Part shown: positions 612-35,211 of the stretch, piece after piece
Position numbering within the stretch: the first letter of the stretch is position 1
Layout of the letters: every line of letters starts with the position of its first letter
NCBI RefSeq assembly: GCF_007859865.1
Contig: NZ_SJPI01000002.1
Location: forward strand, 888,721-952,720
Source: Rubripirellula amarantea
GTDB taxonomy: Bacteria > Planctomycetota > Planctomycetia > Pirellulales > Pirellulaceae
Length of the DNA: 64,000 nt
Direction: 5' to 3'
Notes under the pieces: generated by a model
Told to the model about the DNA's origin: nothing
The model's database searches: none
The model's input: the letters and a program-made list of their open reading frames with translations, nothing else
Made by a program: the position numbers and the translations under genes

Positions 612-2353
612 AAGCAAGCGACGTGAACGTGACGAATGTGACTTCAAACACTCACGCGTGTGAATCAGCGTGGGACGATTGGATGACACATCGAGAACTG
701 CTGCGTTTGATCGTCGTGCGCAGTCGCTTCCGCATGCACAGATCCGTAAGCAGATTTCTTTCGCCGCGACGAATCATCGCAAGCGTCTTAGCCGCATCGT
801 TCATGGTGCTGTACGTTCTGGCTGGGGTGATGATCTTATCCACTCGCCAGCCCGCCGATCCCGGAAGATTGCAGTTGTGGCTGTCTGGTGGGATGGTCCT
901 GTACGCGATCTATCACAGCACCAAGTGCGCTTGGTCGTCGTCGAGCTTAGATCTGGATCTCAGTCCGAGCGAGCAATGGATGCTCGGCGGTGCGCCCCTG
1001 CGTCGCTCGTCCTTGGCGATCTATCACGTTCTGCAAATTGTGCCGGCAACGTTCATGAAAACGTGTTTGTTGGCCGTTGTTTTGGCGGTCGATGTGACCT
1101 ACCCCGCGATGTTAGTCGTCGGGATATTTGCGTCGCTAATGATGCTTGAGGTATGTCGACTTACGGTAACGCGGATGGCAGGCGGCATGGAGCCTCGTGG
1201 AATCATCGTTTTTCGAGCCATCACGTCAACCCTCGCCGCAGCGATCGTATTCCAAGTGGTGATGCGCATCATTGCGATGGTTCCCTTGGGAGCACCGCCG
1301 CCGATGTACCTTTCCGCGACGTTTAGGTCCTTGGGGCAAACCGCAGCAAGTGAGATGGTGCAGTGGATATCGATGCCTTGGCATTGTGCGGCGAACGTCG
1401 CAGTTTCCGATTCGTTGAATCCTATGACGGCCCTTTTTCTCTTGGCTTCCTTGATCGCCTTGCCAACGTCGGTACTAGCCTTCGTCGTGATTGACCGCCG
1501 GTGTTTGTTGGCCAGTTCTCGTTGGGAACACGCAAGATTGCATTCTGGCGAGTATGAGTCGCAGAAGGGACACGTTGAAAACCGCGTGAGTTCGTTGTCC
1601 GTTTGGCCGACGTCGTTTGGACTTACTGGATTGTTATCAGCAATCGATATTGACGCTTCCTCAGTCGCTTATCGGATGGCCGTCAGCGTGTCACGCTATC
1701 GAGGAACGATCCTGTTCAGTTTCGCCATTCCCAGCGCTATTTGTCTATCACCTTTACTAAGTAGCCGAATCAATCATCCGTGGTTGTTTGTCGTCGGCGG
1801 CGTCGGAATGTGCACCTCACTTGTTGCTCCTTCGGCATTGAGACTCGACTTTCGGCGCGACCTCAAACGAATGCTCTTGCTTCGAACGCTGCCGATCAAT
1901 CCGGCTTCCATGGTGTTGGGACAACTTTGGTTTCCCATTTTGATTACCTGCGTGTTTCAAGTGCTTGTCTTGTCCGTCGCAGCCCTGGTGTTGCACCCGG
2001 GTTGGTATCAATTTTTGATGTACGTGGGGATGCTGGCCGCGCTGTCTGTGTTCACGTTCGCGACAGAGAATGCGTTGTTCTTGGCGTATCCGCATCGCGA
2101 GCGTAACGAAGGCATTGGAATGCTGATCCGAACGAAACTAACGTTTCTTGGCAAAACTAGCATCGTCTTGGGAGCCTTCATTTTGCTAGCGGTATGGGCA
2201 ACATTTTGCAAGGGCATGTTGCCTGAATCGCTGGTCGGCGTTGCCGTGATATCTGGAGCCCTCGTGGTGACCTGGGGTGCGGCAGCGGGCGCTTTCGCGG
2301 TCACAACCTGGTGTTGGCGGCGGTTTGATTTGTCCAGCGAAATGATGGTTTGA
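608..2353 (+). CDS. ABC transporter membrane protein (permease-like)
   Basis: A 581-residue polytopic inner-membrane protein with about eleven or twelve hydrophobic segments, from residue 55 (IIASVLAASFMVLYVLAG) to the C-terminus (GALVVTWGAAAGAFAVTTW). It starts with GTG overlapping the stop of the ATPase gene, which makes it the likely membrane partner. I see no FtsX or MacB signature; it resembles the large two-lobed permeases of ABC-2-like exporters, with a hydrophilic break around residues 300-345. The pairing with the ATPase is inferred from the coupling. The substrate is unknown. Confidence 0.75.
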   Translation: MKASDVNVTNVTSNTHACESAWDDWMTHRELLRLIVVRSRFRMHRSVSRFLSPRRIIASVLAASFMVLYVLAGVMILSTRQPADPGRLQLWLSGGMVLYAIYHSTKCAWSSSSLDLDLSPSEQWMLGGAPLRRSSLAIYHVLQIVPATFMKTCLLAVVLAVDVTYPAMLVVGIFASLMMLEVCRLTVTRMAGGMEPRGIIVFRAITSTLAAAIVFQVVMRIIAMVPLGAPPPMYLSATFRSLGQTAASEMVQWISMPWHCAANVAVSDSLNPMTALFLLASLIALPTSVLAFVVIDRRCLLASSRWEHARLHSGEYESQKGHVENRVSSLSVWPTSFGLTGLLSAIDIDASSVAYRMAVSVSRYRGTILFSFAIPSAICLSPLLSSRINHPWLFVVGGVGMCTSLVAPSALRLDFRRDLKRMLLLRTLPINPASMVLGQLWFPILITCVFQVLVLSVAALVLHPGWYQFLMYVGMLAALSVFTFATENALFLAYPHRERNEGIGMLIRTKLTFLGKTSIVLGAFILLAVWATFCKGMLPESLVGVAVISGALVVTWGAAAGAFAVTTWCWRRFDLSSEMMV

Positions 2354-2379
2354 CCATTATTGGCGACCTATGTTTTTAG

Positions 2380-3897
2380 GTGTCATGGTTCGGTCGGGAT
2401 TTATCGATCGGAATCATCTGCGCAACCGGAACTATCCTCACTCCAACCGTTCTGATTCCTATGGGACTACTCGTTGCACTCTTCGCGATCGCCGCGTTGC
2501 CATTCTTGGTACCGCTGGTTCATCGTGGACGATTGATACCGGTATCCGTGGTGATGTTGGTAACGGGAACCGTGTTTGGTCCATTCTTCTTTGCGGTCGA
2601 CGGGCCGATTCAGATCAGCCTTGATCGACTGCTCTGGGCCGGATTGGTGTGCATGACGCTAATTCAATGGCGACTGGGCAACCTGCAACTGCCCAAACTC
2701 AATCGAATCGATTGGCTCATGCTGGGATTCGGCCTACTTTGTCTAATCGGAGCCTGCCGTGGCGGTCCGGTGCCGACGGGAAGTTCACCCATCGCTCGAT
2801 GGCTGTTCTACATCGCGATGCCATTGGGAACCTACGCGATCGCACGCAGCGTTCGATTGACCGTTAACGATGTGCGCTGGGTAACGCTTGGCGTTTTCTG
2901 GTTGGGCATGTACCTGGCAATCACCGGACTATTCGAGATAAAGTCAATGTATTGGGCGGTCTTCCCCAAGTACATCAACAATCCCGAGGCGTGGGAGTTC
3001 TTTGGTCGAGCCCGAGGACCGTTGTTGAATCCAATCGGCAATGGCGTACTGATGGGATTGGCACTTGCAATAGCGGCGGTTGAGTTTTGCCGGAGCGGGC
3101 GCCAAGGAAAGGTCCTGTACGGATTCGCATCGTTGATTCTGCTTGCTGGTGTCTACGCGACACTCACGCGAAGTTGCTGGATCGGAGCGATCGGGGCCAT
3201 CGGAATGATGGCGATGCTGCAGGTACCTCGTTGGACGCGCGTTCTTGCCATCGCGAGTGTTGTGTTGTTGGCGGGAGCCATGTCGATGGGGCTGAAGGAT
3301 AGCCTGATGGAACTCAAGCGTGACAAAGCTTTGTCCGCGGCTGAAGCAGCTAAGTCTGTTGAACTGCGTCCGTTGTTGGCAGTGGTGGCGTGGGAAATGT
3401 TCAAAGACCATCCCATCATCGGACACGGCTTTGGGCACTACTTCGAACACAATGGCCCTTACCATCAAATTCGCAAGTACGGTTTGCAGCTCGAACGCGT
3501 GCGGCATTACCAACAGCACAACACGTTCTTGGCCGTTGTCGTGGATTCCGGGACACTCGGGATCCTGATCTTTATGTCTGGGCTTCTGCTGTTCTACACC
3601 ACCGGTTGGCAGCTTGCGCGAGGGCTCGATTCCAATCCCGAGATGCGAATGTTGGGATTGTTGATGATGTCGGCGATTGTAATCTACGCCGCCAACGCAA
3701 TGTTCCACGACTTGATCATCATTCCGATGGTCCAGATGTTCATGATGTTCATCGCGGGACTGGCGATCAACGCACGAGAAAAGGGCGTCGTACGCAAAGC
3801 CTCGCTTCAACCCGTCTATGCTAGGCAGCCGCTCGGCCGTTGTGCATCAGGCGAATTTCTTCGTCTTCGATCTTGTGACAGTGCGCTTCGCCACTAA
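2380..3897 (+). CDS. O-antigen ligase/polymerase-like membrane protein
   Basis: A 505-residue protein with ten or more hydrophobic segments and the layout of the Wzy_C/O-antigen ligase family, which acts on lipid-linked sugars at the outer face of the inner membrane. TLTRSCWIGAIGAIGMM and the later large hydrophilic loop with DHPIIGHGFGHYFE fit the conserved Wzy_C region and the GxG-containing loop. The start is uncertain: GTG 2380 keeps an extra hydrophobic segment and has AGG just before it, while ATG 2461 would begin directly in a membrane helix. The last 77 bases overlap the end of the opposite-strand gene. It lies 26 bases after the ABC genes and may be in their operon. Confidence 0.72.
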   Translation: MSWFGRDLSIGIICATGTILTPTVLIPMGLLVALFAIAALPFLVPLVHRGRLIPVSVVMLVTGTVFGPFFFAVDGPIQISLDRLLWAGLVCMTLIQWRLGNLQLPKLNRIDWLMLGFGLLCLIGACRGGPVPTGSSPIARWLFYIAMPLGTYAIARSVRLTVNDVRWVTLGVFWLGMYLAITGLFEIKSMYWAVFPKYINNPEAWEFFGRARGPLLNPIGNGVLMGLALAIAAVEFCRSGRQGKVLYGFASLILLAGVYATLTRSCWIGAIGAIGMMAMLQVPRWTRVLAIASVVLLAGAMSMGLKDSLMELKRDKALSAAEAAKSVELRPLLAVVAWEMFKDHPIIGHGFGHYFEHNGPYHQIRKYGLQLERVRHYQQHNTFLAVVVDSGTLGILIFMSGLLLFYTTGWQLARGLDSNPEMRMLGLLMMSAIVIYAANAMFHDLIIIPMVQMFMMFIAGLAINAREKGVVRKASLQPVYARQPLGRCASGEFLRLRSCDSALRH

Positions 3898-27696: not shown

Positions 27697-28947
27697 TTAG
27701 ATTTCTAAACCTAACGCAAACGAAATGGCGTCGAGACCGATGGTGCTGTGGGAATCGACGGGGCCGCCTGCGTCGAACCATGTCTGGCTCTCATAGCCAC
27801 CGCGAGCAAACCACTGCCACCGCTGCCCCTTCGGTTGAGTCCATTGCAGGCCTAGCGACAATTCCACCACGGTTAGAATTTCGCGTTGAATAGCGGCATC
27901 CTCTAGTTCCGTGGTGAAGGCACCCTTCATTTCGTAAATCTTCTGCTCCGTTTCGCACTTCAAAAGCGATCCTCGCATGCCGGCGTAGACGCCTAAACGC
28001 GTATCACCCAAACCACGGGCCGCTTGCAGCGAAACAGTAGGACCGGCGCCACTAAGTGTCAGATCATTCGAGACCGCTTCTTGTAACGCTCCACCTCCAT
28101 CGCGAACCTCGCCTAGCAAGTGTTGATCTATCTTCGCCAACCGGACTCCGGCGCCCACCGTGCCGACTAGCGATTCCCAGCGAAACTGTTGAGTCGCTTC
28201 AAAATCGAGAGCCTGAAGTTTGAGCGAATGGCTTGAGGTGAGCGTTTCGCCAACGTTGGCTTGAGCGAAACGCGATAGGTTTCCACCCGCACCATAAACG
28301 TAAACAAACACCGGAGTCGCGCCGGTGACGGCCATCACCGATTCGTCAGCCGCTGCTTCGTCGTACTGAAAATAGGTTGTTCGAAAGCCGCCGCCACGAC
28401 ACGATTGCCACCCGATCCAAGCGCGTGGCGTGAGTTCGTATTCATAATCAAATGGTACTAGGGTGTTTCCTACGGGAGGATCGATGATCAATGCAACGTT
28501 CTGATCAAACCCAGCTCGCATCCAAAGAAACTCGAATCCGCCGTAGAACCCTCGCAAGTCAGCCGCCAAAGGACGCATTGGTGCGACGACGATGGGTTGA
28601 TCCGCAGTCGACGTTCCCCATCCAACGTCGTTTTCGCAGCCGCCGAATTGGGTGCCCGAGTGGATTCCCGGATAGCCATTCGGATAGCCATTCGGATAGC
28701 CGCTGCAATAGTCGTTTGAATAGCTGTTGCGATAGCCATTCGATTCAACGTTCTCGACGAAGTGCTGCCATTGCGAAGGTCCAGCGTAGCTGGACGATCC
28801 GCAAGGGGGAGTCGCGCTCCATTGTGTTGACGAGGTTTCGCAACCGCAATTGCTACCATGGTTCGCCCAAACGCGAGTTGCCGTTGTAGCAGACCAACTC
28901 AACAAGAGGCCAATGGACAATAGCCGCTTTACTGTTTCCGATTTCAT
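27697..28947 (-). CDS. Outer-membrane-type beta-barrel protein with Tyr/Gly repeat segment
   Basis: About 416 residues from ATG 28947, chosen because GGGGGAG lies eight bases upstream and a signal peptide starts there (KRLLSIGLLLSWSATTATRVWA). After it comes a Gly/Tyr/Asn-rich segment with repeats such as NGYPNGYPG (about residues 68-95). The rest shows alternating strands, aromatic residues and a C-terminus ending SFALGLEI, as expected for a barrel. It resembles planctomycete outer-membrane proteins of unknown role. An upstream in-frame extension to 29094 has no signal peptide and is not used. Confidence 0.72.
   Translation of the reverse strand: MKSETVKRLLSIGLLLSWSATTATRVWANHGSNCGCETSSTQWSATPPCGSSSYAGPSQWQHFVENVESNGYRNSYSNDYCSGYPNGYPNGYPGIHSGTQFGGCENDVGWGTSTADQPIVVAPMRPLAADLRGFYGGFEFLWMRAGFDQNVALIIDPPVGNTLVPFDYEYELTPRAWIGWQSCRGGGFRTTYFQYDEAAADESVMAVTGATPVFVYVYGAGGNLSRFAQANVGETLTSSHSLKLQALDFEATQQFRWESLVGTVGAGVRLAKIDQHLLGEVRDGGGALQEAVSNDLTLSGAGPTVSLQAARGLGDTRLGVYAGMRGSLLKCETEQKIYEMKGAFTTELEDAAIQREILTVVELSLGLQWTQPKGQRWQWFARGGYESQTWFDAGGPVDSHSTIGLDAISFALGLEI
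28669..28740 (-). repeat. In-frame 12-bp repeat array (6 units)
   Basis: Six 12-bp units run from 28669, the first two exactly CGGATAGCCATT and the others diverged. They encode a four-residue Asn/Ser-Gly/Asp-Tyr-Pro/Arg/Ser repeat in the barrel protein. The outer units are more diverged than the central ones. Confidence 0.8.
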
Positions 28948-29278
28948 CACCGCACTCCCCCAACGAATTGCACTGTTGCTTAGCAGTCTTGATCGGCAGG
29001 ATCGTTGAAGGGAGATTGAGTGAATGCATTTAGCGCTCTGTGTTCTCGCAATCGCTAAACCCTTACGTGTGCGGTGTGCGATCTGGCGCAACATGTGTGA
29101 CGCATAGGGGCAATGTCACCCGACGCACACATCGTCGTTCCCGCTTACCGTCGACGCGAACAAAGATTTCGGAAACAAATTGAGCTTGTTCGTACGTTCG
29201 CAATATTGCTGCGCAAACAAGTTGCTATGATCTGCGATCTATTCGCAAGCCAATGAGCTGACCTTGCAGGACGCATTG
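28948..29278. other. Divergent intergenic region, barrel gene / nrfH
   Basis: There is no gene in these 331 bases. TTTAGCG at 29029-29035 and CGCTAAA at 29053-29059 are a perfect inverted repeat, and GCAATATTGC is a ten-base palindrome near 29206. Neither matches the palindromes in front of the Rrf2 gene, and I see no clear FNR (TTGAT-N4-ATCAA) box, so control of nrfHA stays open. Confidence 0.4.
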
Positions 29279-29803
29279 ATGCCAGACAAAACACTTCCAC
29301 CAACGATGAACGATGACGGTTCACCAATCGAACCGGCGTCGACCAATCGAATGCGTTGGGGGTACGGAGCGATCCTGTTTGCAGCGTGCCTGGGAATGCT
29401 GGCTGGGATTGGCGTCTTCACGTTTGGCTACGGCAAAGGTGCAAGCTACTTAAGCAACAATCCACAAACGTGCGTGAATTGCCACGTGATGCAGGGTCAC
29501 ATGGATTCGTGGCTACAAAGCAGTCACCACAACGTTGCCGTGTGCAACGATTGCCACCTCCCGCACGACTTTGTTGGCAAGTGGGTTACGAAAGCCGACA
29601 ACGGATTTTTCCACTCTCTCGCATTCACGATGGGAGGCTTTAGTGATCCGATTCAAATCAAGCCTCGCAACAAGCGAGTCACTCAAAACGCGTGCATTTC
29701 CTGCCACAAAGAGTTTGTTCACCCGTTATTGCCAGCGGTCGATGGTCAAGACATGCAGTCGTGCGTGCATTGCCATACCAACGTCGGACACGCCGGGCGC
29801 TAA
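29279..29803 (+). CDS. nrfH: Cytochrome c nitrite reductase small subunit NrfH
   Basis: A tetraheme quinol dehydrogenase of about 174 residues (NapC/NirT family) that passes electrons from the quinol pool to NrfA on the outer side of the inner membrane. One N-terminal membrane helix (GAILFAACLGMLAGIGVFTF) is followed by four CxxCH sites: CVNCHVM (Met ligand nearby, typical of heme 1), CNDCH, CISCH and CVHCH. ATG 29279 is preferred over TTG 29264 because AGGA lies seven bases upstream. nrfA follows after 39 bases. Confidence 0.95.
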   Translation: MPDKTLPPTMNDDGSPIEPASTNRMRWGYGAILFAACLGMLAGIGVFTFGYGKGASYLSNNPQTCVNCHVMQGHMDSWLQSSHHNVAVCNDCHLPHDFVGKWVTKADNGFFHSLAFTMGGFSDPIQIKPRNKRVTQNACISCHKEFVHPLLPAVDGQDMQSCVHCHTNVGHAGR

Positions 29804-29842: not shown

Positions 29843-31414
29843 ATGACTCAACAAAACAAAAGCGGATTCGGTTGGCTGGCCTTGCTCACTGCGCTGGTGG
29901 CTCTGGCGACCATTGGCGTCGTTTCCTTGTTGGTGAACATCTTTGAACGAAAGCAAGAAGCTCGAACGCCGTTCGTCAAAGTGGTGGAAGTTAGTGAGGT
30001 TAGCACGGATCCAGAACCGTGGGGCCTCAACTTTCCTCAGCAATACGAAGACTATTTGAAGACGGTCGACGACGACTATACCGACTACGGTGGAAACCAC
30101 GCGTTGCCACCGAGTAAGTTAGAAGAACACCCTTGGCTGAAGCGTTTGTTCGCCGGCTATGCGTTTAGCATCGAATACCGCGAAGCTCGCGGTCACGCTC
30201 ACATGTTGTCCGACCAGGAAGTCACCAAACGTGTGACCGAGGTGCAACAGGCCGGCGCTTGCTTGCACTGTCATGCTTCAATCATTCCAACGTACCGTCG
30301 AATTGGGATGGAAACACTCGGTCAAGAGGTCAATGAAGCATCACTGTCCGCTTCGTACAACCAGGAAGCCGTCTTGGCTGGTTTCAAAGCCGTCAGTCAA
30401 AAGACCTACGAAGAAGTGCACGCGGAACTAGAAAAGACACCCGATGGAGTCGTTAAGAGTGAAGCGGGCGATCCGCATCTAGGTGACGCGCACCCGGTTT
30501 CTTGCATTGATTGTCACGATCCGGACACGATGGCAATCCGCGTCACGCGTCCCGGTTTCATTCTCGGCATCGATAAGCTTGCCAAAAGCGACGATCCGGT
30601 TCCCCACTTGCCTAGCATCCAGGCCTGGCGCGATAAGGGAGCCAAGGGCAACTATGACCCGAACGTGCATGCAACTCGTCAGGAACTGCGGTCGTTCGTG
30701 TGTGGTCAATGTCACGTTGAATACTACTGTGCCAACAAAATGACGCTGACGTTCCCGTGGGGCAACGGATTGAAAATGGAGGACCTCGAAAAGGAATGGA
30801 ATGAAACGACGTTCCCCGACGCGGAAGATGGCACGGCCGGTGGCGAATTCTACGACTACGTCCACAAAGAAACGGGCACTAAAGTTTACAAGGCGCAGCA
30901 CCCTGAGTTCGAATTATGGAGCCAGGGCATTCATGCTCGCAGTGGTGTGAGTTGCAGTGATTGTCACATGCCTTACGAGAAGGTGGGCGCGACGAAGGTC
31001 AGTAGCCACTGGGTTCGCAGCCCCATGCTCAATATCAACAAAGCATGCCAAACCTGTCACCATATCGCCGAGCAAGAAATCAAGGACCGCGTGGACTTGA
31101 TCCAAGATCGCACGCGATCACTGATCGACCGCGCTGCCGCTGGAGTGACAGACATGTTCGATGCCATCATTGCCGCGCAAGAAGCCGGGGCAACCGAAGA
31201 ACAGCTTGCTCCCATTCGCGAACTGCAGCGCAAGGCTATGTGGCGATTGGACTTCATCGCTAGCGAGAACAGTAAAGGGTTTCACGCCAGTCAAGAAGCG
31301 GCCCGCATCTTGGCCGAATCGGTGGACTACGCCAGACAAGCGATCGCCGAGTGCTACAAGCTTGGGGCGAACCCGAAACCGGTTCAGGATGAACCGGCGC
31401 TGACTCAGAACTAG
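29843..31414 (+). CDS. nrfA: Ammonia-forming cytochrome c nitrite reductase NrfA (CXXCH at heme 1)
   Basis: A 523-residue periplasmic enzyme reducing nitrite to ammonium with six electrons; NrfA also reduces NO. Five heme sites are visible: CLHCH (140-144), CIDCH (221-225), CGQCH (287-291), CSDCH (371-375) and CQTCH (402-406). The region CGQCHVEYY, the loop TFPWGNGLKMEDL and HPEFELWSQGIHARSGV match the active-site surroundings of NrfA. Heme 1 carries CXXCH, not the usual CXXCK, so His probably replaces Lys as the ligand, as in a known minority of NrfA proteins. The N-terminal helix (about 10-33) may remain as an anchor. Encoded with nrfH. Confidence 0.95.
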   Translation: MTQQNKSGFGWLALLTALVALATIGVVSLLVNIFERKQEARTPFVKVVEVSEVSTDPEPWGLNFPQQYEDYLKTVDDDYTDYGGNHALPPSKLEEHPWLKRLFAGYAFSIEYREARGHAHMLSDQEVTKRVTEVQQAGACLHCHASIIPTYRRIGMETLGQEVNEASLSASYNQEAVLAGFKAVSQKTYEEVHAELEKTPDGVVKSEAGDPHLGDAHPVSCIDCHDPDTMAIRVTRPGFILGIDKLAKSDDPVPHLPSIQAWRDKGAKGNYDPNVHATRQELRSFVCGQCHVEYYCANKMTLTFPWGNGLKMEDLEKEWNETTFPDAEDGTAGGEFYDYVHKETGTKVYKAQHPEFELWSQGIHARSGVSCSDCHMPYEKVGATKVSSHWVRSPMLNINKACQTCHHIAEQEIKDRVDLIQDRTRSLIDRAAAGVTDMFDAIIAAQEAGATEEQLAPIRELQRKAMWRLDFIASENSKGFHASQEAARILAESVDYARQAIAECYKLGANPKPVQDEPALTQN

Positions 31415-31422
31415 ATCGCCGA

Positions 31423-31977
31423 TCAATTACCAGCAGCAGCGATTGGCATGGTAATCACAAGTCCGGCCGTCCGGTCTTCGTTGCTGTTGCGCCGCTTGAC
31501 GTGACACTTCAGACACTGGGAACGCAGGATGATTGCACCTGCGTAACGGAACTCGGTATCACTGAACTGCTCGATCCACGGTTCGCCTTTCGCCAACGAT
31601 TCGACCGCGCGTTTTTCGAAATCATTCTCAGGCAAATGGTCGGTGTTCAGCACGTCTGTGTCGATGATCAACCACTTCACCTGAACTTGGTAGTTTCGGG
31701 ACAGTTCATAGAACACGTCTTCGAGCGAACGGGACGGAATTGCGAACGCGTCGTCTTCATCGAAATAGTCTCGATGAACGACTTGCAACGTTCCTCGTAT
31801 CGTTTCATGCAACAACTTTGAACGATCGCGAGCTTCTTTGGCGGTGGCCGGCGCAGCGATAACGGGTTTAATGGTTGGTTCTTGCTTAGGCTCGCTAGCG
31901 AAAGTGAACGTTCCGGCGACGATCAAAAGAGTCGCCATCGCAGCCCAGCGAGGGTGGTTTCGAAACATCCAAGGCAT
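31423..31977 (-). CDS. Tll0287-like (DUF3365) monoheme c-type protein
   Basis: A 184-residue exported protein (signal WAAMATLLIVAGTFTFA) with a Tll0287-like sensor-type domain and one c-heme site, CLKCH, near residue 157. Its central part, IPSRSLEDVFYELSRNYQVQ, fits DUF3365. Family members bind heme and are thought to sense redox state or gases. The start lies four bases after the stop of the Rrf2 gene, so the two form an operon. Its 3' end faces nrfA with eight bases between the stops. Confidence 0.82.
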   Translation of the reverse strand: MPWMFRNHPRWAAMATLLIVAGTFTFASEPKQEPTIKPVIAAPATAKEARDRSKLLHETIRGTLQVVHRDYFDEDDAFAIPSRSLEDVFYELSRNYQVQVKWLIIDTDVLNTDHLPENDFEKRAVESLAKGEPWIEQFSDTEFRYAGAIILRSQCLKCHVKRRNSNEDRTAGLVITMPIAAAGN

Positions 31978-31981
31978 GCGA

Positions 31982-32404
31982 TCAAACGCTTTCGCAAAGT
32001 GGAATGATGGGACTAGCCGATTCGACCAAGTCCTTGATGCTCACACTCGCGAACGCCTTTTCCGTCGCGGCGTATGCTTTGTCCAGTTCAGCATGCAGAG
32101 GACAGAGTTTGGTGTGCGTGCTAAGGCCCAACGGACACGAGCGAATTCGTTCAATAGGAGCAACGGTGTTGACCACGTCCAAGATTGTCAGCTTGTGGGT
32201 AGGGTGGCTTAGTTCGTAACCGCCGCCTGGACCGGGACGCGACTGCACAAGTCCAGCGGCAGCCAAGTCTTGCAAAACCCGCGTCAGGTAACGTCTTGGC
32301 ACCTTGGTTTGCTCGGCTAAGAAATCCGCCGATGCGGGGATCCCTGGCTGGCTGCCCATGCAGGCGACGGCGCGAAGAGCGTATTCAGCGGTCTTGGAAA
32401 GCAT
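31982..32404 (-). CDS. Rrf2-family transcription regulator (NsrR/IscR-like)
   Basis: A 140-residue DNA-binding protein with an N-terminal winged helix ([40 protein letters not shown]). The C-terminal half carries [15 protein letters not shown], two Cys ten residues apart, rather than the three Cys of classical NsrR or IscR; His or another residue could complete a cluster site. Its neighbours (nrfHA, DUF3365, monoheme proteins) suggest a nitric-oxide or redox sensor. Two matching palindromes lie between this gene and the divergent cytochrome pair, and autoregulation is likely. Confidence 0.9.
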
Positions 32405-32428
32405 TGTGTACGTTGAATTTGAGGACTA

Positions 32429-32483
32429 ATTATATTCATGCACCTTGACGTGCAGATATGGATTCTGTACCATTGGGTGCAGA
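32429..32483. promoter_or_regulatory. Two tandem palindromes overlapping divergent promoters (likely Rrf2 operators)
   Basis: Site 1 (32437-32456) contains TGCAC-N6-GTGCA. Site 2 (32464-32483) is CTGTACC-N4-GGTGCAG. Aligned over 20 bases they share TG-ACC near the left end and GTGCAGA on the right; their centres are 27 bases apart. TTGACG (32445-32450, inside site 1) and TACCAT (32468-32473, inside site 2) are 17 bases apart and make a plus-strand promoter for the cytochrome pair. On the minus strand TATAAT (32434-32429) for the Rrf2 gene lies three bases from site 1. A bound repressor would cover both promoters. Confidence 0.65.
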
Positions 32484-32555
32484 ACTCAAGTTTAGCAGTC
32501 GAGAATCACATCGGCAACTTCAAACTTTGTTGTGTGATCGTTTGCCCTCAATAAC

Positions 32556-33899
32556 ATGAGACCAACCAACGTGAACCTGCTCACGAACCATCCTTTCGTC
32601 GATTGCCTTCGCCTGATTCCGCTGGCTCTATTGGTACTGTTGCCCGCATCTTCAAGTGCGGTTCACGCTCAGGGCGATTACGAAAGGCCGCCGATTGATT
32701 ATCTCAACGCCGAAGTTCATGACCCCTGCGCCGTGCTGGCTAAGAAACTGGAGTCCGGCGAAGTAAAACTTGATTACGACCCAACGTACGGATATTTGAA
32801 GTCTGTGTTGAAGGAGCTCGACGTTCCCGTCAGTTCGCAGACGCTTGTCTTCAGCAAGACTAGTTTGCAATTGCATCGCATTTCTCCTCGCATGCCTCGG
32901 TCGCTGTACTTCAACGACGATGTCTATGTTGGGTATTGCCAACGCGGTGATGTGTTGGAATTCGCAGCAACCGACGCCAAGCAGGGAGCGACGTTCTACA
33001 CCCTGAAGCAAACTCCCAAGGGCACACCTGAGTTCGTTCGCGACAAGGGTGGCTGCTTATCTTGTCACGCTTCAAGCCGAACCCAAAACATTCCGGGTTA
33101 CCTCGTTCGCAGTGTTTTCTCGGATGCCGCCGGCCGTCCTAAGCTAGGCAGTGGTACGTTCACAACCGACCACACCAGCGACTTCAAAGATCGTTGGGGT
33201 GGATGGTACGTCACGGGAAGCCACGGCAAGATGCGTCACATGGGGAACACGCTATGCACTGGTGACGAGCACACATTCGATCGTGAGTCCGGGGCTAATG
33301 AAGATGATCTATCGGAACGATTTCGCACCGATACGTACCTGACGCCGCACAGCGACATTGTGGCTCTAATGGTGCTGGAACATCAAACTCAAATGCACAA
33401 TGCCATCGCAGCAGCGAACTACGAAACCCGGTCGGCATTGCACCAGTCGTTTCAGATGAACGAGCTGTTGGACCGTCCCAAAGATCATGTCAGCGAGAGT
33501 GCCCAGCGTCGTATTGAATCGGCTTCGCAACGGGTGCTTAAGTACTTGCTGATGTGCGACGAGTTTCAACTCACCGATACGGTGTCCGGTTCCACAACCT
33601 TTGCGGATGACTTCACGGCCAAAGGCAAGTTGGATTCTCAAGGCCGGTCGCTACGTGAGTTTGATTTGGAGACTCGTTTGTTCAAGTATCCCTGCAGCTA
33701 CCTGATCTATTCCGCCGCGTTTGACGGAATGCCTGATGAAGTGCGTTCACGCGTTCTGGTAAAGCTGAAAGCGATTCTGGACGGGCAAGATCAGTCCCCC
33801 GAATACGCTCATCTGACGCCCCCGATGCGTCGTGATATTCTGGAAATTCTGCGTGACACCAAGCCCGAGTTCAAACAAATTCTATTGGCAAGCCGCTAG
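32556..33899 (+). CDS. Exported monoheme c-type protein, unrecognised family (paralog A)
   Basis: A 447-residue periplasmic protein. It has a signal peptide (LIPLALLVLLPASSSAVHA) and a single c-heme site, CLSCH, near residue 169. Other marked blocks are QTLVFSKTSLQLHRISPR, YFNDDVYVGYC, RWGGWYVTGSHGKMRHMGN, DIVALMVLEHQTQMHN and GRSLREFDLETRLFKYPCS. These are all shared with the following gene, so they are family signatures; their His and Met residues could bind metal or heme. I do not recognise the function. The gene is divergent from the Rrf2 regulator and lies behind its presumed operators, which points to nitrosative or redox stress. Confidence 0.8.
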   Translation: MRPTNVNLLTNHPFVDCLRLIPLALLVLLPASSSAVHAQGDYERPPIDYLNAEVHDPCAVLAKKLESGEVKLDYDPTYGYLKSVLKELDVPVSSQTLVFSKTSLQLHRISPRMPRSLYFNDDVYVGYCQRGDVLEFAATDAKQGATFYTLKQTPKGTPEFVRDKGGCLSCHASSRTQNIPGYLVRSVFSDAAGRPKLGSGTFTTDHTSDFKDRWGGWYVTGSHGKMRHMGNTLCTGDEHTFDRESGANEDDLSERFRTDTYLTPHSDIVALMVLEHQTQMHNAIAAANYETRSALHQSFQMNELLDRPKDHVSESAQRRIESASQRVLKYLLMCDEFQLTDTVSGSTTFADDFTAKGKLDSQGRSLREFDLETRLFKYPCSYLIYSAAFDGMPDEVRSRVLVKLKAILDGQDQSPEYAHLTPPMRRDILEILRDTKPEFKQILLASR

Positions 33900-33900
33900 C

Positions 33901-35211
33901 GTGATTCCCGAATCAAAAGCTAAGCCGGTAAAGCGATTCGTCGCCAGCGTTGTCGCAGCGCTCACGATCGTCGTCGGTATGTCGTCCTTGGCAAACGCTC
34001 AACTGAGCTTGAATATCGAGATTGACGAGCCTCCCATCAACTACGTGTTGACGAAGGATTCCAATCGAGTCTCTCAATTGATGGATAGGTTGGCCGCTAA
34101 GGAAATTGAGCTTGAATACACGAACGACCACGGATACTTACGCGACTTGTTGAAGGCGCTCGAGATTCCCGAGTCATCCCAAACGCTGGTGTTCTCGAAA
34201 ACGAGCATGCAGGTCCAGCATATTTCGCGTCGTAATCCCAGAGCTGTCTACTTCAATGACGACACCTATGTAGCATGGATTCGCGGCAGTTCGTTGATTG
34301 AGATGTCGACGACGGATCCGAAATTGGGGGCTGCCTTCTACACCGTCGACATGGCGCCTTGGCGGCCTAAAGTGAAGCGATCCAACTACGATTGCCTGGG
34401 ATGTCATTCGACTTCGATGACGCAAGGCGTTCCGGGTCATACTGTTCGCAGTGTGCATCCTGACTTCGACGGTGGAGTCCAGGCTCAAACAGAATCCTTC
34501 GTGACGAGTCACTCGAGCCCATTCGGCGAGCGATGGGGTGGCTGGTATGTCACTGGACTTCATGGTGAGATGCAGCATATGGGCAACGCGTACATGCGCG
34601 GCTCACGCCTGGATACCAGGAACAACGGCAACCGAAAGAACCTGCGAGAAGAGTTCGACACCTTTGGATATCTGTCACCCTACAGCGACATTGTTGCGTT
34701 GATGGTTCTCGAGCATCAAACACAGATGCACAATGTGATGACCAAAGCGGATTTCGCGGTCCGAAAACTGATCTACGATCGCGATGAAACAGGTTCGCAC
34801 GACGTAGCCGAGTGGGAAGCACAAATTCAATTGGTCGCCCGCGAAGTTGTGGATCACTTGCTATTTCGAAACGAAGCGAAGTTAACGAGTGAGGTGACGG
34901 GATCGATCACTTTTGCGCGTAACTTTACCGATCGCGGACCTGTTGATTCACAGGGCCGATCGCTACGCGAATTCGACATGCGAACACGTATGTTCAAGTA
35001 TCCATGTAGCTATCTGATCTACTCTGATGCCTTCAGCGGCTTGCAGCCCATCCTGAAGACCGAGATTTACCGCCAACTCTTAGCCATTCTTGCGAGCGAA
35101 GAGCCTATTGAACGATACGTTCACTTGGATGCCGGCACTCGTACTGATATCTTGGATATCCTGCGAGCGACCAAAACAGATCTTCCTGAGGAATGGCGTG
35201 AGCGTCAGTAG
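33901..35211 (+). CDS. Exported monoheme c-type protein, unrecognised family (paralog B)
   Basis: About 436 residues from GTG 33901, one base after the stop of paralog A; the signal peptide RFVASVVAALTIVVGMSSLANA supports this start. It repeats the blocks of paralog A: QTLVFSKTSMQVQHISRR, YFNDDTYVAWI, heme site CLGCH, RWGGWYVTGLHGEMQHMGN, DIVALMVLEHQTQMHN, GRSLREFDMRTRMFKYPCS. Similarity is high throughout, so the pair looks like an old tandem duplication. The two may form a heterodimer or act on different substrates. They must be co-transcribed. Confidence 0.8.
   Translation: MIPESKAKPVKRFVASVVAALTIVVGMSSLANAQLSLNIEIDEPPINYVLTKDSNRVSQLMDRLAAKEIELEYTNDHGYLRDLLKALEIPESSQTLVFSKTSMQVQHISRRNPRAVYFNDDTYVAWIRGSSLIEMSTTDPKLGAAFYTVDMAPWRPKVKRSNYDCLGCHSTSMTQGVPGHTVRSVHPDFDGGVQAQTESFVTSHSSPFGERWGGWYVTGLHGEMQHMGNAYMRGSRLDTRNNGNRKNLREEFDTFGYLSPYSDIVALMVLEHQTQMHNVMTKADFAVRKLIYDRDETGSHDVAEWEAQIQLVAREVVDHLLFRNEAKLTSEVTGSITFARNFTDRGPVDSQGRSLREFDMRTRMFKYPCSYLIYSDAFSGLQPILKTEIYRQLLAILASEEPIERYVHLDAGTRTDILDILRATKTDLPEEWRERQ

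Follow-up and report, generated by a model that had tools for sequence, protein, structure and literature searches.

A stretch of 64,000 nucleotides from the planctomycete Rubripirellula amarantea (contig NZ_SJPI01000002.1, positions 888,721 to 952,720; hereafter the window) carries at 31423-35211 two tandem genes for secreted monoheme proteins, designated M1 and M2, divergent from a gene for an Rrf2-family regulator, and raises the question of which signal this regulator answers and what role the two heme proteins and their relatives (the M family) could have in the response. The locus is best read, at a probability of roughly 0.6, as the periplasmic arm of a nitric-oxide (NO) regulon under an NsrR-like Rrf2 repressor. 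Judged by their gene context and upstream sequences, M1 and M2 are very likely members of this regulon, and the M family probably contributes, in a way not recognised before, to the ability of planctomycetes to withstand NO. Direct handling of NO by the M proteins is a tentative proposal, with chances slightly short of even.

The minus strand carries the genes for the Rrf2 regulator (31982-32404; PF02082 96.6 bits, cut-off 30) and for a stand-alone DUF3365/Tll0287-like protein of the sCache_heme family (31423-31977; PF11845 38.2 bits, cut-off 24.1; CXXCH heme motif CLKCH), and the plus strand those for M1 (32556-33899; 447 amino acids (aa), CXXCH at residues 167-171) and its tandem paralog M2 (listed open reading frame 33832-35211). 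A signal peptide is readable by eye at about residues 1-38 of M1, and the true start of M2 is likely the GTG at 33901, directly after the M1 stop codon, rather than 33832, because a start there yields a signal peptide. M1 and M2 are about 44-45% identical, have one CXXCH each and share the blocks RWGGWYVTG and EHQTQMHN. All elements named in the first-pass annotation of this DNA were found where it had placed them, including the tandem monoheme paralogs, their divergence from the Rrf2 and DUF3365 genes, both Pfam identities being above cut-off, and two palindrome copies covering the promoter of the pair.

These two 16-bp palindromes upstream of M1 have starts 27 bp apart, with copy 1 (TGCACCTTGACGTGCA, 32439-32454) overlapping the -35 hexamer and copy 2 (TGTACCATTGGGTGCA, 32466-32481) overlapping the -10 hexamer of a promoter-like TTGACG-17-TACCAT at 32445-32473 on the plus strand. 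In a wider delimitation the two copies cover 32439-32456 and 32466-32483. The promoter-like sequence reaches from one palindrome into the other, was found once as compared to a mean of 0.3 in shuffles, and has a layout that looks similar by eye in relatives; in loci of the window type the palindrome upstream of M or Rrf2 keeps TTGAC in its centre. The pattern TGYACNTTGACRTGYA has exactly one exact match within the window, and only this exact site is meaningful there, since the count with up to three mismatches (six matches) is not above the chance mean of 8.7. A slightly looser form of the operator gave four matches in the 6.95-Mb host genome and one for the reversed control; one of the four, located inside a coding region, looks unrelated and was set aside. 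Another of the four, a palindrome of type 1 (the window's form) at G000:C1:1792959-1792974, lies 49 bp upstream of a gene for a 1246-aa protein (L176 2171-5911, minus strand); it also looks unrelated, and may mark a further regulon member or a chance match.

The link to NO comes from hmp, the gene of the NO dioxygenase. The sequence TGCACCTTGACATGCA precedes the listed start of the host hmp by 81 bp, at a distance of about 122 kb from the M locus, and the host Hmp scores 531 bits (cut-off 432) with the NCBIfam model 'NO-inducible flavohemoprotein'. Flavohemoglobin-like genes were found in 16 genomes by a match of E 1e-25 or better with an open frame of at least 408 aa, the host Hmp alone being checked by NCBIfam. 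In 11 of these 16 loci a window-type Rrf2 gene is divergently adjacent to hmp, two of the 11 being in genomes without M, and in 13 of the 16 visual inspection reveals an operator resembling type 1. All 12 genomes with both M and hmp have at least one M gene with an upstream palindrome (exact in five, with one mismatch in five and with two in two), some of them holding further M copies before which none was noticed. The palindrome is of type 1 in three of these genomes (exact in the host and G361, two mismatches in G307) and of a second form, type 2 (TGGAY-N6-RTCCA), which occurs in loci carrying a sister type of Rrf2, in the other nine (exact in three, one mismatch in five and two, by eye, in G373). 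Of 22 Rrf2 genes of interest 20 were read: sister-type Rrf2 is present in all seven genomes checked of these nine, G373 being left out and the one Rrf2 gene read in G181 being of neither type, and a type-2-like palindrome with one mismatch lies within 300 bp upstream of the sister-type gene in five of the seven, in one case at 242 bp. The first-pass annotation had suggested a nitric-oxide or nitrite response; its NO part is stronger because of this hmp evidence, which it lacked, and its nitrite part gained nothing.

Globin genes also occur close to M, a flavohemoglobin being found within 4 kb in 4 of 138 M loci and a protoglobin in 5 (9 together). An apparent inverse relation, with hmp in 1 of 10 genomes having Rrf2 beside M and in 11 of 45 other M genomes, was discarded, the numbers being too small. 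A second kind of heme-based control was also observed near the family, as protoglobin (globin-coupled) histidine kinases stand beside or near M in L045 (10757-14573) and L132 (5156-7928), with a sigma-54 response regulator also in L045.

The 138 M loci derive from 60 of a draw across the phylum, 80 of GTDB (the best 80 by score of at least 576 confirmed M stretches) and the window, that is 141 less three duplicates; 97 of them carry 4 kb of flank on both sides, and in the phylum draw 60 M places were taken with flanks, leaving out remaining paralogues, near copies and fragments. Of the 138 loci, 34 have an Rrf2/NsrR-type gene at most 4 kb from M, as compared to about 0.5 expected by chance, since 119 Rrf2 genes above the Pfam cut-off occur in about 279 Mb of M-carrying genomes (42 of 55 were searched for PF02082 and NrfA). 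In the phylum draw with the window the count is 10 of 61, all midpoints being within 2.5 kb, and an sCache_heme gene is near M in 13 of the 138. The association with Rrf2 drawn from a single locus in the first-pass annotation thus recurs far above chance. The operator is likewise enriched: allowing one mismatch, TGYACNTTGACRTGYA precedes M in 13 of 138 loci versus 4 of 1370 control windows. Among 137 loci tested for exact palindromes within 350 bp before M, 8 have one of type 1 and 13 one of type 2, as compared to 0 and 1, respectively, among 643 control windows; ten further palindromes built to the same scheme gave two exact matches altogether. In a FastTree phylogeny of M the Rrf2 label requires 20 changes, at least 14 of them forced by supported branches, as compared to 31.9 in shuffles, and has been gained or lost many times. 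Two further arrangements were observed: within one genus (g3) the window-type Rrf2 adjoins M in L045 (G333) and hmp in L193 (G327), and a metagenome-assembled genome titled Candidatus Kuenenia stuttgartiensis, a bin that may be misnamed or mixed, has sCache_heme, Rrf2 and M in the window's order (L152).

Taken together, these observations suggest a mechanism in which an NsrR-like Rrf2 repressor, probably with an iron-sulfur (Fe-S) cluster, would occupy the two operator copies over the -35 and -10 hexamers of the M1-M2 promoter and, the intergenic region being shared, would regulate rrf2 itself and the sCache_heme gene as well, with the same operator serving hmp at a distance. Attack of NO on the cluster would release the repressor and lead to the synthesis of Hmp in the cytoplasm and of M1, M2 and the c-type sCache_heme protein in the periplasm, where the most likely task of M1 and M2 would be to bind or transform NO, or else a related compound like hydroxylamine, by means of their heme. 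Gene layout, the palindrome common to M and hmp, the recurrent linkage, the CXXCH motifs and, by eye, the signal peptides are direct readings of the DNA; repression, NO as the signal, the cluster, heme coordination and NO chemistry are what we infer from them.

Several points weigh against this reading. The NO response is deduced from comparative evidence, and 43 of the 55 M-carrying genomes lack a flavohemoglobin by the above cut. Where both are present, M has the sister operator and not that of its own hmp in 9 of 12 genomes, G373 alone among the nine having type 2 at both. No Rrf2 is found inside 4 kb in 104 of the 138 M loci, of which 13 have an exact upstream palindrome, and near kin share the Rrf2 label (none of 500 shuffles needed as few as 20 changes). 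Allowing one mismatch shrinks the operator contrast to 21 and 38 of 137 loci versus 21 and 30 of 643 control windows for the two types, and the GTDB sample, being the best-scoring 80 of at least 576, is skewed to close relatives of M1. A stand-alone sCache_heme protein that has been studied did not bind NO strongly, according to the report on it (PMC12889525). The regulator itself is also atypical, as it reaches 47.7 bits with the NCBIfam NsrR equivalog, whose cut-off is 182, and lacks the three-cysteine motif, window-type proteins having C-x10-C-x2-H instead. NsrR coordinates its NO-reactive Fe-S cluster by C-x(4-8)-C-x5-C cysteines; two Rrf2 proteins with the classic pattern from other loci, at 104.3 and 119.1 bits, are also below this cut-off.

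Three kinds of Rrf2 were distinguished near M, namely the window type (C-x10-CPLH), the sister type, with one additional residue, and the classic NsrR type (C-x(6-7)-C-x5-C); the last is found in five M loci, in which no exact type-1 or type-2 palindrome is present, a search for another operator not having been made. In the window Rrf2 an Fe-S ligand set may consist of Glu7 and of C-x10-C-x2-H with an intervening conserved His, and this regulator is the sole one of its kind in the host genome, because the other full-length Rrf2 protein there lacks the Cys/His motif. Both the window and the sister type conserve an unusual combination of Cys-His-Cys-His plus an acidic residue close to the N-terminus, which may be a new arrangement of cluster ligands. 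The cluster ligands of IscR are a Cys-Cys-Cys-His set, to which the closing CxxH of the motif in the window Rrf2 bears a resemblance, and the NCBIfam scores are alike and all below cut-off for NsrR (47.7), the SUF regulator (42.3), RirA (42.1) and IscR (36.9). It could hence be that the regulator senses Fe-S, redox or iron state in the manner of IscR, RsrR or RirA, with M1-M2 in a redox or iron stress regulon of which hmp is one member. This is unlikely, since the window type stands beside hmp in most flavohemoglobin-like loci and no Fe-S assembly gene was noticed among the recurrent M neighbour clusters, which were viewed by eye and not annotated singly.

The M proteins matched no family in Pfam, NCBIfam or the PDB sequences above chance, which bears out that the family is without a name in Pfam or NCBIfam. 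Of 392 genomes sampled from the phylum, 55 contain relatives, M1 and M2 being the only ones found in the host, and by title the best 80 of the at least 576 GTDB stretches are planctomycete except for three from Verrucomicrobia and two given plainly as 'bacterium'. Across 140 aligned M proteins R115, E135, C167, C170, R185, R213, H228 and D267 are invariant, and H171 (139/140), H276 (136/140) and H223 (132/140) nearly so. The AlphaFold2 model of M1 has a predicted local distance difference test (pLDDT) score of 90.9, and Foldseek found no PDB match for it at E 0.001.

Such features bear on whether M1, M2 and the sCache_heme protein could be signalling proteins, forming a periplasmic sensor relay for NO or redox rather than detoxification enzymes. 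The globin-coupled kinases in L045 and L132 and the sigma-54 regulator in L045 would suit a relay, as would sCache_heme domains fused to signalling modules, which have NO-sensor properties (PMC12889525). However, Pfam and NCBIfam searches revealed no output domain in M, the model offers no apparent membrane anchor beyond the N-terminal helix, the only one judged possible, and a length of 447 aa with many invariant polar residues is in our judgement better suited to an enzyme or ligand carrier, which makes a relay quite improbable.

Directly adjoining the module are nrfH (29264-29803, plus strand; TIGR03153 162.9 bits, cut-off 134.2) and nrfA (29843-31414, plus strand; PF02335 371.3 bits, cut-off 24.1), both genuine by family scores, and this adjacency had led the first-pass annotation to link the M pair with nrfHA. 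M1-M2 could be accessory electron carriers or maturation partners in nitrite reduction by nrfHA. Such a role is very improbable: of the 42 M-carrying genomes searched, 22 gave no match for NrfA at E 1e-20, and among the 20 that do possess NrfA the host alone has it next to M. Neither NrfA nor NrfH was matched in the other 140 M loci, and no operator match precedes nrfH even with up to three mismatches; nrfHA was therefore rejected as part of the module, outside which it probably lies, and its adjacency looks local. A chance arrangement of unlinked neighbours, for which the 104 M loci without a nearby Rrf2 might speak, is hardly credible in view of the enrichment of Rrf2 and operator and of a label that arose or was lost many times.

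Other neighbours were taken as background: genes that we take to encode sulfatases (20 loci) and a DUF1549-like group (14 loci) recur near M, and both are very common in planctomycetes. Upstream of nrfH, at 27697-29094 on the minus strand, lies a gene for a secreted protein of a beta-barrel-like family, presumably BBP7-type, a clear relative of which, by eye, is situated between Rrf2 and M1 in L094 (about 1261-2800, plus strand).

Physiologically, an NO regulon at this locus would give a widespread family of secreted heme proteins, nameless in the libraries, its place in a defined regulon that can be tested, and would extend likely NO-responsive Rrf2 control to planctomycetes, for which literature searches on NsrR and Rrf2 brought up no description of such a regulon. 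Literature searches on NsrR/Rrf2 in planctomycetes, Tll0287/DUF3365, NsrR regulons, globin sensors and P460 brought up no description of M either, the family being nameless as a search term. The habitats of planctomycetes are sites of NO and hydroxylamine turnover, and a periplasmic NO protein in them, if true, would have a bearing on nitrogen cycling and nitrous oxide (N2O).

Comparison with known heme proteins places the 31423-31977 protein with the stand-alone sCache_heme form that has been studied, which looked redox-like (PMC12889525). M1 and M2 differ from this family, as they align with it over 17-18 columns round the heme motif only; PF11845 reached 1 of 29 M heme regions, at E 0.27, so homology across the domain was not found. 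Cytochromes P460 and c'-beta are small c-type proteins that carry a single heme and have a beta-sheet domain with the CXXCH close to its C-terminal end; cytochromes P460 oxidise hydroxylamine, and some cytochromes c'-beta bind NO (PMC6427953, a structure paper, and PMC11928373, a review). A heme-lysine cross-link is a trait of P460 only. The M1 model is similar in that its CXXCH follows strands between residues 96 and 162, and the M heme region had its top VIA rows from this superfamily (PF16694); PF16694 itself matched none of 29 M members, either as whole proteins (E up to 0.1) or as heme regions (E up to 10). M1 and M2 could add a third lineage to the P460/c'-beta heme fold, in which a new helical domain places His276, nearly invariant, next to His228 and Asp267, both invariant, and could be a new class of periplasmic NO-converting enzymes and a main NO effector of planctomycetes, with the NO regulator controlling M in place of hmp where the latter is missing and the three Rrf2 kinds recruited in separate lineages; this extended proposal is doubtful.

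As for regulation, the resemblance is to the NsrR/hmp regulon as described in PMC1274295. Its operator, gATGyAT-N5-ATrCATc, is palindromic with a TGyA half-site as here, and tandem predicted NsrR sites overlap the promoter of Bacillus subtilis hmp, as the two copies do before M1. The window operators differ in having six bases between half-sites instead of five and in the existence of a second form, the regulator differs in its Cys/His pattern, and the periplasmic monoheme effector has no counterpart noticed in that regulon literature. An Rrf2-family regulator clustered with hmp is nevertheless common to both systems, the window Rrf2 sharing this NsrR trait through the same palindrome at the host hmp and the clustering of its type with hmp, and the regulon proposed here is supported by the same kind of comparative evidence by which the NsrR regulon was first defined (PMC1274295).

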